Source of the DNA: a virus | IMG/VR virus record: IMGVR_UViG_3300044825_000653 | Coordinates: 1 to 22,662 of that record | Strand: one strand, 5' to 3' | DNA: 22,662 nt | In this document: one piece after another, positions 907 through 6,759 of the stretch | How positions within the stretch are numbered: position 1 is the first letter of the stretch | Layout of the letters: the number at the start of each line of letters is the position of its first letter | The notes under the pieces: generated by a model | What the model saw: the letters and a program-made list of their open reading frames with translations, nothing else | The model's database searches: none | What the model was told of the DNA's origin: nothing | Made by a program: the position numbers and the translations under genes

Positions 907-3219
907 ATGGATTTCCTAGAATTTTATACTAATTTGGCACCACAAGGTGAGACTGCTTTAGTTGTTCGCCAGAAACCTAAACTCAAAAGCGGACAAATTC
1001 AGTTGCACCCCGACGGCGCGGTAATCTGCACATGGCCGGCGTACCTGCCCGACTATCCGACCAAGCCCGATTGGGCAATCTACGGCAACACGGCAAGCTT
1101 TATCGTTGACCGGTTCAAGGACGGCCACGTTTCCGCATCGGCTGCGAATGCCGACTACGTGCTGGTGATGGTGCTGGATGACGTGGGTGACCCTGAGAAG
1201 GCGCCCAACACGCCGCCACTACCACCGACGTGGATCATCGAGACGTCTGCCGGGTCGTTCCAATGGGGTTACGCATTCTCAGAGCAGCCGACCACCGGCG
1301 AGTATGCCGCAGCCATCCGAGCGATTGCGGACGCGGGTTATACCGATCCTGGCGCCTGCAATGCGGTGCGTAACTTCCGTCTGCCGGGGTCAATCAATAT
1401 CAAGCCGGGACGGGATAACTTCGCCGCTCGTTTGGTTGAGTTCCATCCAGAGCGCGAGTACAGCCTGCCCGAAGTGTGCGCAGCCCTAAATGTCACGCCA
1501 GCGCCCGCTGAGTCACTGGGCGTGCGTCCTATCCGTCTGTCCGACGATGGCGCGGACGACGTGATGGCGTGGCTCTCGCATCAGGGCGTGCTGTTGTCGA
1601 CCCCAAACCCTGCCGGGTGGGCTGGCGTCATCTGCCCCAATAAAGACGAGCATACCGACGGCAACCCAGAGGGGCGCTACAGCCCGTCAACGCGCTCATA
1701 TCGCTGCCTGCACAGCCATTGCGTGGACTTCGACTCGCATGCGTTCTTAGATTGGGTCGCTGAGAACGGCGGCCCCAAACACGCGCCTGGCTTGCGTGAG
1801 GAGCTGTTGGCTCACGCGATGGACGCGGCGCTATCCAAACTGACGCCGACTGAGGCGTTTCCTGACAAGGGCGCAGAAGTCATTGCAGAGGTCGAGAAAA
1901 AACAACTGGATAGGGTCGAGAAGGAGAGCTGGTATGAGCGCTTTGCATACATTCAGAACGAAGATGCGTACTTTGACATGCTGGATCGACGCGAAATTAG
2001 TCGCGGCACTTTTAATGCACTCTTTCGACACATTTCCTGCTATTCAATCCACAAGAGCAAAACGCCGCGCCGAGTTGAGGCGTCTATATGCTATGACGAG
2101 AACCGACAGGCCAAAGGCGCATTGACGATTGCAGGCATCACGTACGCCGCTGGCGAGACGGTGCTTGTGTCGCGTGAGGGGCAAGTGTACGGCAATCGAT
2201 GGGTCGATCACCGTCCGCCGGTCAAGTCAGGCGACGCGCAGGTATGGCTCGATCATGTCGAGCGCATGTTGCCCGACCCGGTCGAGCGCAATCACGTTCT
2301 GGACGTCATGGCCTACAAGCTTCAAAACCCGAACCGCAAGATCAATCACGCGGTGCTGCATATCGGTCACCCAGGCTCTGGCAAGGACACCATGTGGCAG
2401 CCGTTCTTATGGGGCATTGGTGGTGAAGCGCTCTCAAACGTGTCAATCGTGCGGAACGAAGAGATTCAGTCGCAATGGGGTTATGCGTATGAATCCGAGG
2501 TCATGGTGTTTGAAGAGTTGCGCCAGAGCGAGGCGAAAGACCGCCGGGCGCTTGAGAACCATCTAAAGCCCATCATCGCCGCGCCGCCGGACTTTTTGCA
2601 GGTGAACCGCAAGGGCATGCACCCGTACCAGGCACTCAATAGAATCTTCGTTCTTGCGTTTTCCAATGAGCGTGTGCCGATCTCGCTGGCCGGGGACGAC
2701 CGCCGCTGGTTTGTGACGTACTCCGAGGCGCCGCGCATGACCGAGGCAGAAGCTTGCGCGATCTGGGACTGGTATAAGGCCGGCGGCCTAGCTGTTGCTG
2801 CCGGCTGGCTATATGCGCGTGACGTGTCGCGGTTCAACCCTGGCGCCACGCCACCATTGACCGAGGCAAAGATCATCATGATTGAGCAGGGCAGATCGAC
2901 TGCTGAGTCGTATCTGGTCGAGATGATTGAGCGCCGTTTGGGCGAGTTCTCAGGCGGTGTCGTGGCCGCACCGTTCTACAGCCTGTGCGACCGGCTGCAA
3001 GGTGGTGCGCCGATGAATACCCGCGTGGTACAGCAGGCGCTCTTACACGCGCTCAAAGAAGCCGGCTGGATCGATATGGGACGGCTAGCGTCACGCGAAC
3101 ACAGCACTAAGAAACATATATTCTGTGCGCCAGAGCTAGCCGACACGGCGAGCAAGTCAGAACTGCGCCGCATGGTGGAGGAAACACCGCCGCCGTCAGC
3201 GGTGCGACTGGTGAAATAG
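907..3219 (+). CDS. Primase-helicase fusion (RepB/AEP-like primase plus SF3/DUF5906-type ATPase)
   Basis: A 770-residue replication protein that should both prime and unwind phage DNA. The N-terminal region has an acidic pair in a beta-strand context (VLVMVLDD, residues 86-92) and the RLPGSINIK signature (158-166) seen in archaeo-eukaryotic-type RepB primases. A Cys/His cluster follows (C243, H249, C267, H269, C272) that could bind zinc. The ATPase part has Walker A GHPGSGKDT (487-495), a Walker B-like VMVFEE (532-537) and the SNE...DDRRWF sensor region typical of DUF5906/D5-like phage and plasmid helicases. SD AAGGA sits 5 nt before the ATG. With the upstream polymerase it makes a self-contained replication module. 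The family assignment is from motifs; the exact primase subclass is uncertain. Confidence 0.88.
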   Translation: MDFLEFYTNLAPQGETALVVRQKPKLKSGQIQLHPDGAVICTWPAYLPDYPTKPDWAIYGNTASFIVDRFKDGHVSASAANADYVLVMVLDDVGDPEKAPNTPPLPPTWIIETSAGSFQWGYAFSEQPTTGEYAAAIRAIADAGYTDPGACNAVRNFRLPGSINIKPGRDNFAARLVEFHPEREYSLPEVCAALNVTPAPAESLGVRPIRLSDDGADDVMAWLSHQGVLLSTPNPAGWAGVICPNKDEHTDGNPEGRYSPSTRSYRCLHSHCVDFDSHAFLDWVAENGGPKHAPGLREELLAHAMDAALSKLTPTEAFPDKGAEVIAEVEKKQLDRVEKESWYERFAYIQNEDAYFDMLDRREISRGTFNALFRHISCYSIHKSKTPRRVEASICYDENRQAKGALTIAGITYAAGETVLVSREGQVYGNRWVDHRPPVKSGDAQVWLDHVERMLPDPVERNHVLDVMAYKLQNPNRKINHAVLHIGHPGSGKDTMWQPFLWGIGGEALSNVSIVRNEEIQSQWGYAYESEVMVFEELRQSEAKDRRALENHLKPIIAAPPDFLQVNRKGMHPYQALNRIFVLAFSNERVPISLAGDDRRWFVTYSEAPRMTEAEACAIWDWYKAGGLAVAAGWLYARDVSRFNPGATPPLTEAKIIMIEQGRSTAESYLVEMIERRLGEFSGGVVAAPFYSLCDRLQGGAPMNTRVVQQALLHALKEAGWIDMGRLASREHSTKKHIFCAPELADTASKSELRRMVEETPPPSAVRLVK

Positions 3220-4262: not shown

Positions 4263-4414
4263 AAAGCCACCCCATGAGTGTCGATTGTAGGAACTAGGCG
4301 CGCCGGTACGGGCACGCGCCGCGTGATATACCGGCCATTGGCCGGCGGGTAATCTAGCCACTGTATAACCGCATCAAAACAGTCTAAGCGGCCGTATTGC
4401 AGGCGATAGCGCAT
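4256..4414 (-). CDS. Overlapping 52-aa hypothetical protein
   Basis: A 53-codon frame (MRYRLQYGRLDCFDAVIQWL at the N-terminus, VPTIDTHGVALW at the C-terminus) that fills exactly the space between the Gp88-like gene and the 77-aa gene. Its ATG shares bases with the upstream stop (TGATG at 4416-4412) and its TGA overlaps the downstream ATG (4262). This is the geometry of translational coupling on both sides, and an AAGGGG SD-like run lies upstream. Function unknown; basic, Tyr/Arg-rich, no membrane segment. Confidence 0.72.
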   Translation of the reverse strand: MRYRLQYGRLDCFDAVIQWLDYPPANGRYITRRVPVPARLVPTIDTHGVALW

Positions 4415-5166
4415 CAATAATCCCGCCCCTTAATTTGAACGAAACCGCCGGTATCGCGTTTTGCTTTGCCTTTGGCATACAAGGCAACGACCACGCCGGC
4501 CGGCTCAATATGGCGAACATCGGTGTCGTCGCCGTCAACGACCGGCCACCCGCGAAATTCGGCTGGTATATCGCTCTGCTTTTGGAATACCACGGCCGCG
4601 CGTTTATTGGCCGGATTGATCAGGCCTTTAATTGATATCGGTTTCGGCGTGATAGCGGAAAATGAATACGTCAGATCATAGTTGCCGGCCGTTTTGCCCG
4701 TCAGGTTTCGGCTAGGGTGTTTCGTGTAATCGTAAAATTGAACGTCAGCGAACAGCTGGAATATCGTTTTGCCGTCAATCAAGATATTTTCAAACGGGAT
4801 ATCTGACGTGCCATTTGGCCGCACAAGCGGGATTAATCCTAATTTTTCAGCGCGCCGTGCGTGCGACCATACATCAGCGGCCATTGATAGCATAAACGCG
4901 CGCTGATTCTCACGGAAAAACGCGGTTTTGGCCGCTCTGGCCGCTTGCACGGCATTAAACGCGCCGCGGCCGGCCGATTTTAAACAGCCGTCAAAACAGC
5001 CGGCCATAATCGCAAACGGACAAAGCTTTTCATCCGGTACCAGATAGCAGATAGCTGTCAGATATCCGATTTTCTCGCCCTTAATTGTTTTGGCGCTGGA
5101 TTCACCCAAAACGCGGCGATAGGGTAAACCTTCACGTTTTAATTGTGCTTTGAACGGGTTTTGCAT
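4414..5166 (-). CDS. Gp88-like phage protein, 250 aa
   Basis: This resembles the phage 'gene product 88' family (named from a mycobacteriophage gene; biochemical role unknown to me). The recognisable core is at residues about 39-85: four cysteines in C-x8-C-x7-C-x3-C spacing (AIC, LCPF, GC, GCL), then SAGRGAF, then a helix VQAARAAKTAFFRENQRAF. The cysteines could coordinate a metal or Fe-S cluster. A likely nucleotide- or substrate-binding beta-region follows (SFSAITPKP, VVDGDDTDVRHIEP). SD AGGAG lies 8 nt before the ATG. It is the largest gene of the leftward operon, and its stop is coupled to the 52-aa gene. The family call is from memory of the motif; the metal proposal is inference. Confidence 0.8.
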   Translation of the reverse strand: MQNPFKAQLKREGLPYRRVLGESSAKTIKGEKIGYLTAICYLVPDEKLCPFAIMAGCFDGCLKSAGRGAFNAVQAARAAKTAFFRENQRAFMLSMAADVWSHARRAEKLGLIPLVRPNGTSDIPFENILIDGKTIFQLFADVQFYDYTKHPSRNLTGKTAGNYDLTYSFSAITPKPISIKGLINPANKRAAVVFQKQSDIPAEFRGWPVVDGDDTDVRHIEPAGVVVALYAKGKAKRDTGGFVQIKGRDY

Positions 5167-5348: not shown

Positions 5349-5534
5349 TTAGATTCTGAATTCTGGATGACCGGCTAACCGAAGGCCTTCGGCCAAAGCG
5401 ATCAGATCGCGCCGGCTTTTGTCTGTACGTGATACGCGAATCAATGATGACAAGATACGCGCCGCTGATACGTCATTGCCAGCGAAAACGTGTGATTCGA
5501 CAATCGCCGCTTGTTTAGTTTCGAATTTAGTCAT
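5349..5534 (-). CDS. Hypothetical protein, 61 aa, first gene of leftward operon
   Basis: Unrecognised. It is predicted mostly helical: MTKFETKQAAIVESHVFAGN, then VSAARILSSLIRVSRTD, then RRDLIALAEGLRLAGHPEF, resembling a small three-helix bundle that could hold a helix-turn-helix, though no clear HTH signature is present. SD GGAGA lies 8 nt before the ATG. It is promoter-proximal: the consensus sigma70 promoter at 5602-5629 would start transcription about 60 nt upstream of this ATG. First-gene position and small size fit an early phage regulator or host-takeover protein; that is inference. Confidence 0.75.
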   Translation of the reverse strand: MTKFETKQAAIVESHVFAGNDVSAARILSSLIRVSRTDKSRRDLIALAEGLRLAGHPEFRI

Positions 5535-5580
5535 GGTCTTTTCTCCGTTTGCCTAAAATTTAATCAGTGATTTGCACTAC

Positions 5581-5641
5581 ATTGTTTTGCTGCTGAAAAC
5601 CATTATAGCGACAACAAAATAAATGTCAAGGATTGTTTTGC
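5581..5641. repeat. 10-bp direct repeats flanking the leftward promoter
   Basis: ATTGTTTTGC occurs at 5581-5590 and 5632-5641, 51 bp apart (about five helical turns). One copy lies just beyond the -35 hexamer and the other in the start-site/leader region. The placement suits a repressor or looping site, but no regulator gene is evident. Confidence 0.5.
5602..5629 (-). promoter_or_regulatory. Consensus sigma70 promoter for leftward operon
   Basis: On the minus strand the -35 is TTGACA (5629-5624), the spacer is 16 bp and the -10 is TATAAT (5607-5602): both hexamers match the consensus perfectly. Transcription would begin near 5595, leaving a leader of about 60 nt before the 61-aa gene. A perfect host-type promoter suggests strong early expression without phage factors. 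Identical 10-bp repeats flank it, and the GTGGGTCAT elements begin about 30 bp upstream. Confidence 0.9.
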
Positions 5642-5796
5642 ATTTATTTTCGGGTTTTTTTGTGGGTCATTTGGGCGGTTTGTGGGTCATGAAAATGGCG
5701 CGGATGACCCACGCGATAACCTAGTCTGCTACTAGCTTTTAGCTATTTGTGGGTCATGTGGGTCATTAAATCTGTAAAGCTAGAATTTGTGTATTT

Positions 5797-5818
5797 ATAC
5801 AGTAGTGCATACAGTAGT
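5797..5818. repeat. Short tandem repeat ATACAGTAGT
   Basis: ATACAGTAGT occurs at 5797-5806 and 5809-5818 with 12-bp periodicity, inside the non-coding control region. It may be a binding site; nothing more can be said. Confidence 0.4.
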
Positions 5819-5894
5819 TTGCTGCTAAGCCCGCCGTGCCCCACGTTGTACGCAGCCGGCGACTTGAAAAAAAGCCCCAAAATAGCCAACATTT

Positions 5895-5965
5895 TAAGCC
5901 CTTGATTTTAAAGGGCTTTTTCTGTTACTTTTAGGAAACAAAAGTTGTAAGCCCTTGATTTTAAA
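5895..5965. repeat. 18-bp direct repeat pair
   Basis: TAAGCCCTTGATTTTAAA occurs exactly at 5895-5912 and 5948-5965. The first copy forms the left arm and loop of a terminator hairpin; the second has no matching right arm and runs into CAGAAAAA, the complement of the TTTTTCTG after the first. Flanking CAACATTTT and AAAATGTTG add an outer inverted repeat. Confidence 0.75.
5896..5921 (+). terminator. Rightward intrinsic terminator in the control region
   Basis: Stem AAGCCCTT (5896-5903) pairs with AAGGGCTT (5911-5918) around a 7-nt loop, followed by T to 5921. No coding gene lies upstream on this strand within the region, so it would end either an unannotated small RNA started at about 5650-5880 or stray transcription. 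The segment AAAAAGCCC at 5869-5877 can pair with the same GGGCTTTTT, giving a competing structure. Confidence 0.6.
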
Positions 5966-6030
5966 CAGAAAAAATGTTGTTTTTTCAAATGACCCACACT
6001 ATCAACCAATGCCAGTAGGGTTATTATGAG

Positions 6031-6039
6031 TTATCCACA
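6031..6039 (+). promoter_or_regulatory. DnaA box (TTATCCACA)
   Basis: An exact match to the high-affinity E. coli-type DnaA box, lying between the GTGGGTCAT elements and the palindrome array. A single 9-mer can occur by chance, but its placement in this repeat-dense gap supports an origin or DnaA-responsive regulation. Confidence 0.55.
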
Positions 6040-6062
6040 GATTCGTTGCCATAATGCTACAT

Positions 6063-6187
6063 GTTAGTGACCACTAACCTGGCTATGTTAGTGACCACTA
6101 ACTTTGTAAGTAAGTACTCACTAACCTGGTTAGTTAGTGCTTACTAACTTGCCAGGCTGACAACCATGTAAGTGAGTGCTTACTAAC
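6063..6187. repeat. Five 16-bp palindromic repeats (GTTAGTG-NN-CACTAAC type)
   Basis: GTTAGTGACCACTAAC is at 6063-6078 and 6087-6102; variants are GTAAGTACTCACTAAC at 6110-6125, GTTAGTGCTTACTAAC at 6133-6148 and GTGAGTGCTTACTAAC at 6172-6187. The first four repeat every 23-24 bp and the fifth is 39 bp on. The right half-site ACTAAC is invariant and three copies are followed by CTGG. Dyad symmetry and phasing suggest cooperative binding of a dimeric regulator or initiator. Confidence 0.85.
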
Positions 6188-6189
6188 CT

Positions 6190-6204
6190 GGGGGGGGTGG
6201 GGGG
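6190..6204 (+). repeat. G8-T-G6 homopolymer run
   Basis: Eight G, one T, then six G, followed by CCC and further GGG runs to about 6217. It abuts the last palindrome. It could fold as a G-quadruplex or be length-variable; it is also a place where sequencing error is likely. Confidence 0.6.
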
Positions 6205-6264
6205 CCCGTGGCTGGGCGGTCGCGGTCACGGAGGTGTCAGAAGAAATTTTTTATTTTTTAAAAA

Positions 6265-6303
6265 AATGTTGGTAGCCAACATTGCCCACAAATGCGCTAA
6301 TAT
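6265..6303 (+). promoter_or_regulatory. Palindromic operator and possible -10 before small terminase
   Basis: AATGTTGG (6265-6272) and CCAACATT (6276-6283) form a perfect 8-bp inverted repeat around TAG; TAGCCAACATT also occurs at 5883-5893. Downstream TAATAT (6298-6303) could be a -10 hexamer, but there is no TTGACA-like -35; the palindrome occupies that position, as at an activator-dependent promoter. The start site would fall on or beside the ATG at 6310. Confidence 0.45.
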
Positions 6304-6309
6304 GCAGCC

Positions 6310-6759
6310 ATGTTCAAATCGATACCATTCTCACCGCGCAAAGTCGAGGCGACCGAAGCCAGGCTGCAGGCCATCTATGACGCAGCTGCCTTGGGTCTGA
6401 AGGGCGACTCGCTGGCATTAGCCGCTGGTATGTTGCCCACCGAGTTTAGACAGCTGTGCGAACTTGACCCAGCAGCGGATATGGCCGCCATGAAGGGCCG
6501 CGCCGACAGCGAGATGGAGGCCAGTGCCCACCTGCGTGAGGCAGCCCGCGCTGGCGACTCGAAAGCCGCGCTCGCTATCTTGCAGCACGCCCACGGTTGG
6601 ACAGCGCGTCAGGAGATCAGCGTCGACATCACCAACAAGATCAGCATCACGCAAGCTCTCCAGCAGGCACAAGAGCGCGTCTTGGACGGTCTGATTACGG
6701 AACAGCAACCCACCCATCTACCAACTAAAGTGACGAATGGCGCAACAGCCGATCTATGA
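6310..6759 (+). CDS. Terminase small subunit (probable)
   Basis: 149 residues, first gene of the packaging and virion operon and overlapping the large terminase by 23 nt, the standard place for the DNA-recognition subunit. The N-terminal half (ARLQAIYDAAALGLKGDSLALAAGMLPTEF, residues about 17-46) looks like a DNA-binding helical domain. ADSEMEASAHLREAARAGDSKAALAILQHAHGW is a helical segment commonly seen in phage small terminases, followed by a C-terminal helix for oligomerisation. The ATG at 6310 is the first in-frame start after a stop at 6298, and no SD precedes it, so translation may be leaderless. Identification rests on position and helical pattern more than on motif. Confidence 0.75.
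   Translation: MFKSIPFSPRKVEATEARLQAIYDAAALGLKGDSLALAAGMLPTEFRQLCELDPAADMAAMKGRADSEMEASAHLREAARAGDSKAALAILQHAHGWTARQEISVDITNKISITQALQQAQERVLDGLITEQQPTHLPTKVTNGATADL

Follow-up and report, generated by a model that had tools for sequence, protein, structure and literature searches.

A gene-free region with 9-bp iterons matched to the phage primase-helicase is a probable replication origin in a group of freshwater podoviruses

What is the function of a long gene-free region at the point where the gene order of a podovirus-like genome diverges? The window, that is, the whole stretch of DNA analysed here, is a complete IMG/VR virus record of 22,662 bases and represents a 22.6-kb fragment, as the genomes of its podovirus relatives measure ~36–38 kb. 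Its genes run from the last part of a family A DNA polymerase through a primase-helicase and small leftward genes to the gene-free region, and on to terminase and P22-like portal, coat and tail genes. The original prediction was that the gene-free region may be the replication origin and, at the same time, a leftward/rightward switch. Its basic description holds: the sole ORF of at least 50 aa wholly inside 5535–6309 is one of 52 aa, the flanking ORFs are divergent, and GC content is ~39% at 5501–6000 as against 50–60% in most of the remaining window. The polymerase and primase-helicase block said to lie next to the region is indeed in the window, but the end of the contig truncates the polymerase, leaving just its C-terminal part, and "next to" is loose because the primase-helicase ends 2.3 kb away with a leftward gene cluster in between. 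The genes concerned are as follows.

907..3219, plus strand: primase-helicase of 770 aa (probable AEP primase, D5/SF3-type helicase, predicted C-terminal winged helix), the proposed initiator
3079..3117, plus strand: wing codons 725–737 of this gene (GRLASREHSTKKH), covarying with the iteron word
4414..5166, minus strand: GP88-family gene, a member of the leftward cluster between primase and putative origin
5349..5534, minus strand: leftward ORF, left border of the gene-free region
6310..6759, plus strand: TerS-like small terminase gene, right border

A search against Rfam gave zero matches above the gathering score, and blastn of the region against named phages gave zero matches. We found no isolated phage of this kind; the close matches were metagenome-binned contigs, including Rhodoferax and other freshwater Betaproteobacteria, which is weak evidence for such a host. 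TerS and TerL overlap in the window, and in L006, L011, L018, L046 and others they are separated by inserts of several hundred bases that are probably mobile endonuclease genes.

The most conspicuous elements of the region are short repeats. All six exact copies of the 9-mer GTGGGTCAT that had been reported are present (forward at 5662, 5682, 5749 and 5758; reverse at 5704 and 5989). TGTGGGTCA is observed 5 times, with 0.17 copies expected, and both TGTGGGTCA and TTAGTNANNACTAA are clearly above chance. The iterons and the spacer between them are arranged as listed.

5661..5669, minus strand: iteron TGACCCACA (reading TGTGGGTCA on the plus strand)
5681..5689, minus strand: iteron TGACCCACA
5705..5713, plus strand: iteron TGACCCACg, 8/9; the full GTGGGTCAT is on the reverse strand at 5704–5712
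5748..5765, minus strand: inverted tandem iteron pair, left of the AT-rich spacer
5766..5989, no strand: AT-rich spacer, 224 bp as against the usual ~110; the long form is common to L135 and L006
5883..5891, plus strand: iteron TAGCCAACA, 117 bp from the inverted pair, which is the usual spacing
5892..5965, no strand: terminator-like hairpin (5896–5918) and second copy of a 21-nt repeat, a spacer insert common to L135 and L006
5990..5998, plus strand: iteron TGACCCACA, with the DnaA box 41 bp further on
6273..6290, plus strand: tandem iteron-like words TAGCCAACA TTGCCCACA ahead of TerS

Conservation of the repeat layout in related phages had been named as a test of the origin idea, and this test turned out positive and decisive. 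We collected 80 loci through a terminase search and about 200 more through primase searches; 18 records were taken at full length together with two annotated genomes. In more than 100 related phages, 9-bp iterons lie between the primase and terminase genes, each phage having its own word, and one or two related words are repeated per phage, in tandem at period 9. The window has TGACCCACA; words found outside it are TAGCCAACA, TTGCCCACA, TTGTCCACA, TGACTAACA, TTGCCTACA, TTGCCCTCA, TTGCCAATA, TGACCTAAA and others. The usual layout is an inverted pair, an AT-rich spacer of ~110 bp, a direct pair, and an exact DnaA box 31–32 or 40–42 bp further on. The spacer is mostly 100–122 bp long and has 61% AT versus 47% around it (n = 60 phages). 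The left-array spacings of 24, 43 and 9 bp are constant while the words differ, and the window's iteron at 5705..5713 accordingly sits 24 and 43 bp from its neighbours. Among 16 complete or near-complete genomes the word occurs nowhere else in all but a few, where stray copies are few; the word is therefore specific to one site and does not define a regulon. The pre-TerS region as a whole is a mosaic of modules, namely tandem 9-mers, a DnaA box, palindromes in some phages, and a G-run/A-T core by TerS. Cumulative GC skew, also proposed as a check, could be calculated on complete relatives and was uninformative, as it follows gene orientation and has no consistent minimum, and third-position GC skew in the same genomes gave no switch.

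The other repeats of the region differ in how well they are kept. The exact DnaA box TTATCCACA at 6031–6039 on the plus strand is present as reported; on its own it is within chance (2 matches to the degenerate pattern found, 1.64 expected), and an exact box occurs in 39 of the 49 close relatives. Where measurable, its distance to the last iteron is 31–32 or 40–42 bp, a difference of one helical turn between the classes. The five imperfect palindromes GTTAGTG..CACTAAC at 6063–6187 are likewise real (23–24 bp apart, the last 39) and are probably an operator array with a regulatory role. There is also an imperfect 21-nt repeat (5892–5912 and 5945–5965, 95% identity). Neither the palindromes nor the 18-bp repeat of the original prediction can be regarded as an essential part, since many relatives lack them; the palindromes, absent from the close relatives L005, L008, L009, L014 and L037, are thus optional. 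This bears on the idea that the 9-mers are accessories and that the origin depends chiefly on host DnaA or on a protein with the GTTAGTG palindromes as its target. The DnaA box is conserved and phased and the palindrome array adjoins it, but several close relatives lack the palindromes and many distant ones lack an exact DnaA box while the iterons persist, so that we consider this explanation quite improbable. At the place of the palindromes, about –211 to –166 before TerS, the same five close relatives have the halves TGTTYCACG and CGTGRAACA, which resemble those of ParB parS sites except that their order is the reverse; in L019 and L040 these halves occur together with the GTTAGTG palindromes. 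The terminator-like hairpin inside the lengthened spacer points rightward, is followed by a second half copy (5896–5965 in all) and sits between divergent genes.

If each phage has its own word, which protein reads it? A pair of near-identical primases with different words, L059 and G016 (L081), differ at 25 positions in the last 156 residues, the wing included, and at 7 in the first 620. Across 140 tabulated loci, a motif G-R-[LIV]-x-[ST]-x-[ED]... follows the word. We then used an unsupervised mutual-information scan over 78 representatives and 645 variable primase columns, which corrects for shared ancestry only in part. The top columns were 730 for base 8, 728 and 733 for base 6 and for bases 5–8, and 703 for bases 2–4. 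Arg730 and C8 agree in 77 of 78 representatives (61 with both, 16 with neither, one exception). Within clusters of at least 88% N-terminal identity the association persists, with 2 of 2000 permutations reaching the observed value, and the top columns there (733, 739, 728, 735, 704 and 746) are all C-terminal. As controls, TerS and TerL score lower than the primase wing. The 9-mers were called automatically, with a phasing score that gave a small bonus to C at base 5. In fresh phages, Arg730 and C8 were both present in 40 cases and both absent in 9; C8 without Arg730 was found in 0 and Arg730 without C8 in 6, giving agreement in 49 of 55. In most of the six, with words such as TTGTGGATA or TTGTGGGTA, the reverse complement carries CCACA, which suggests that the caller took the wrong strand or phase. 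Further swaps make the L059 group, in which LMSRDYTA goes with TGACTAACA, the best natural experiment: L283 (97% identical) has LYSREYAT with TTGCCTACA, L281 (96%) LASAEYMN with TTGCCAATA, and L298 (90%) LKSREYDS with TTGTCCACA. L147 is an exception to the wing/word rule, outside the core bases. This strong covariation points to the C-terminus of the phage primase-helicase as the putative reader of the repeats. Two other candidate readers were rejected. The leftward neighbour genes are a variable set in which we saw no shared DNA-binding gene, and a phage DnaA domain IV (PF08299) is absent in all relatives searched except MW202483. The latter has a stand-alone domain of this type (L119:31423-31719, E = 1.1e-17), and iterons of the usual kind were not seen before its TerS.

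The predicted structure of the protein agrees with such a role. Its helicase domain is of the DUF5906/D5 type (PF19263, 44.9 bits; cut-off 27.6), and its N-terminus resembles an AEP primase, with a RepB_primase score of 21.2 bits that is below the cut-off of 24.3 and a fold match to the AEP domain of S-2L PrimPol (6zp9). Foldseek matches to the whole protein include NrS-1, poxvirus D5/E5, ASFV PrimPol and SaPI5 PriRep1 (7pds, 7ola), the best match for the helicase part being NrS-1 (6k9c, E = 2.6e-12). AlphaFold2 predicts a winged helix at ~665–757, with a recognition helix at 709–718, strands at 722–727 and 736–740, and the wing at 728–735; the full-length model is moderate (pLDDT 76), and the domain modelled alone reaches 82, its core 88–94. 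Since the model puts the wing at 728–735, the residues that track the word belong either to it or to the stretch that leads into the recognition helix. The C-terminal domain alone matched no Pfam family, and for the isolated domain Foldseek found nothing beyond weak similarity to generic winged helices (E 0.06 at best; VIA Z at most 6.4).

Given the conserved layout and the partnership in sequence between repeats and primase-helicase, the origin proposal is supported. We consider it very likely that a podovirus of 36–38 kb uses this region as its replication origin and that its primase-helicase binds the 9-bp iterons through its C-terminal winged helix; judging from sequence comparison, replication very probably starts here. 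Our best model, by analogy with SaPI/PICI satellites and P4, is that of an initiator that loads itself. Oligomers of the primase-helicase would bind the facing iteron arrays through the winged-helix domain, with bases 5–8 read by the wing and bases 2–4 probably by the residues that lead into the recognition helix. The helicase would then load at the AT-rich spacer between the arrays, open the DNA, and make primers for the phage polymerase; host DnaA, sitting at a constant helical phase, would probably assist. Binding, helicase loading and the role of DnaA are parts that we infer from SaPI Rep and Cch2.

The region also has signals for transcription in both directions and a third conserved element close to TerS.

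5602..5629, minus strand: sigma-70 promoter of the leftward genes, a perfect TTGACA-N16-TATAAT
6189..6265, no strand: G-run, GGTCACGGAGG and A-T tract, next to TerS in most relatives
6298..6303, plus strand: TANNNT, resembling a –10 element, with the TerS ATG 6 nt downstream

Most close relatives keep a leftward promoter of near-consensus sigma-70 type beside the iterons. In 66 of 73 loci a TANNNT lies 4–10 nt ahead of the TerS ATG and no ribosome-binding site is obvious, so the TerS transcript may be leaderless. To this extent the proposed leftward/rightward switch is partly borne out. Could the 9-mers then be operators of the switch, with the C-terminus of the primase-helicase repressing the two divergent promoters in an autoregulatory loop and replication starting elsewhere? 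The strong leftward promoter by the iterons, the late –10 element and the divergent genes would suit this, but the words are limited to one locus in most genomes, an AT-rich spacer between facing arrays and a phased DnaA box fit an origin, and the partner is a helicase-primase and no small regulator. We regard this as unlikely, if the least so of the alternatives to an origin read by the primase-helicase. As the leftward early and rightward late promoters share the region with the origin, initiation and transcription may influence each other.

The TerS-proximal core consists of a G-run, then GGTCACG..GGAGG, then a AAATTTTTT tract, and is a candidate packaging or late-promoter element. One may ask whether the whole region is instead a pac or cos site bound by the small terminase, as it lies directly before TerS, shares its G-rich/A-T core widely, and contains the point where the near-full-length contig G008 breaks, inside that core. 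Contig ends, however, do not fall at one point, several genomes close into circles, and covariation with the 9-mers is weaker for TerS columns than for the primase wing, which makes this the least probable of the alternatives. Unit-length cos ends at the region were rejected, as contig ends scatter and five genomes have end overlaps of 123–127 bp, typical of circular assembly. Even so, the core itself may serve for packaging, side by side with the origin.

How does the putative origin compare with known systems? Two iteron sets around an AT-rich region have been described as a feature of all PICIs that no other known replicon shares (PMC6092414), and the C-terminal domains of the initiator helicases SaPI Rep and Cch2 bind iterons (PMC7581432). 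The present phages resemble them in the two iteron sets flanking an AT-rich region (60 phages; the spacer is lengthened in the window) and in the fold match to the SaPI5 primase-helicase (7pds, 7ola). They differ in that the SaPI/PICI origin lies directly 3' of rep, whereas here the primase ends at 3219 and the first iteron starts at 5661; in being full-size phages with a full structural gene set and no integrase or resolvase in 11 genomes (no tyrosine or serine recombinase found with PF00589 and PF00239); and in having a DnaA box at fixed phase and an iteron word that diversifies among near-identical phages. On account of the distance between gene and origin, and since the search of the 11 genomes turned up neither integrase nor resolvase, we do not consider these phages to be PICIs. 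The P4 alpha protein is likewise a single primase-helicase of ~770 aa that acts as initiator on short repeats, and P4 needs a second site (crr) kilobases away; here all arrays are within one region. Iteron plasmid origins of the oriV type share the DnaA box, iterons and AT-rich segment but depend on a plasmid Rep protein that has no counterpart here, where the 9-bp iterons are apparently read by a helicase-primase. The NrS-1 primase-polymerase, also from a phage, recognizes an 8-nt sequence (PMC7102993), which is present as two single copies in the NrS-1 genome and not in iteron arrays.

The window itself is a hybrid. Its wing, ASREHST, is that of L136, L122, L123 and L124, all with TAGCCAACA, yet it has two copies of TAGCCAACA versus six iterons of TGACCCACA, the word of RSRDFDA phages. 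It is ~92% identical to L136 on both sides except over 5660–6029, and its left array and spacer match L135 (primase RSRDFDA, word TGACCCACA). At the iteron position 5883, the window has TAGCCAACA, the word predicted for its own primase type, L135 has TGACCCACg and L006 has TTGCCCACA. The window may be a recombinant en route to a matched pair, have a protein tolerating both words, or be a chimeric contig. We give an even chance to the joint reading that this is a non-satellite lineage with a satellite-type origin in which the wing sets recognition, that near-identical phages have repeatedly exchanged one wing/word pair for another, through recombination or in single steps, and that the window was caught mid-switch. 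If so, the pairs would form a natural recognition code, possibly with the effect that coinfecting phages are incompatible in replication or evade such incompatibility. A satellite-type layout would here serve full-size, apparently non-integrating phages common in freshwater metagenomes, and the more than 100 natural wing/iteron pairs offer a data set for winged-helix site choice and for initiator/origin coevolution, and would make the origin predictable from protein sequence.

Lastly, some distant relatives have a short sliding-clamp-like gene in the leftward cluster beside the putative origin (L077:1623-2216 and L056:1400-2101, both minus strand). The two tested, L077 and L056, match DNA_pol3_beta_2 (E = 5.5e-10 and 2.2e-8), and similar ORFs occur in L051, L061, L069, L074, L078 and L079; the proteins have ~200–230 aa, below normal clamp length.
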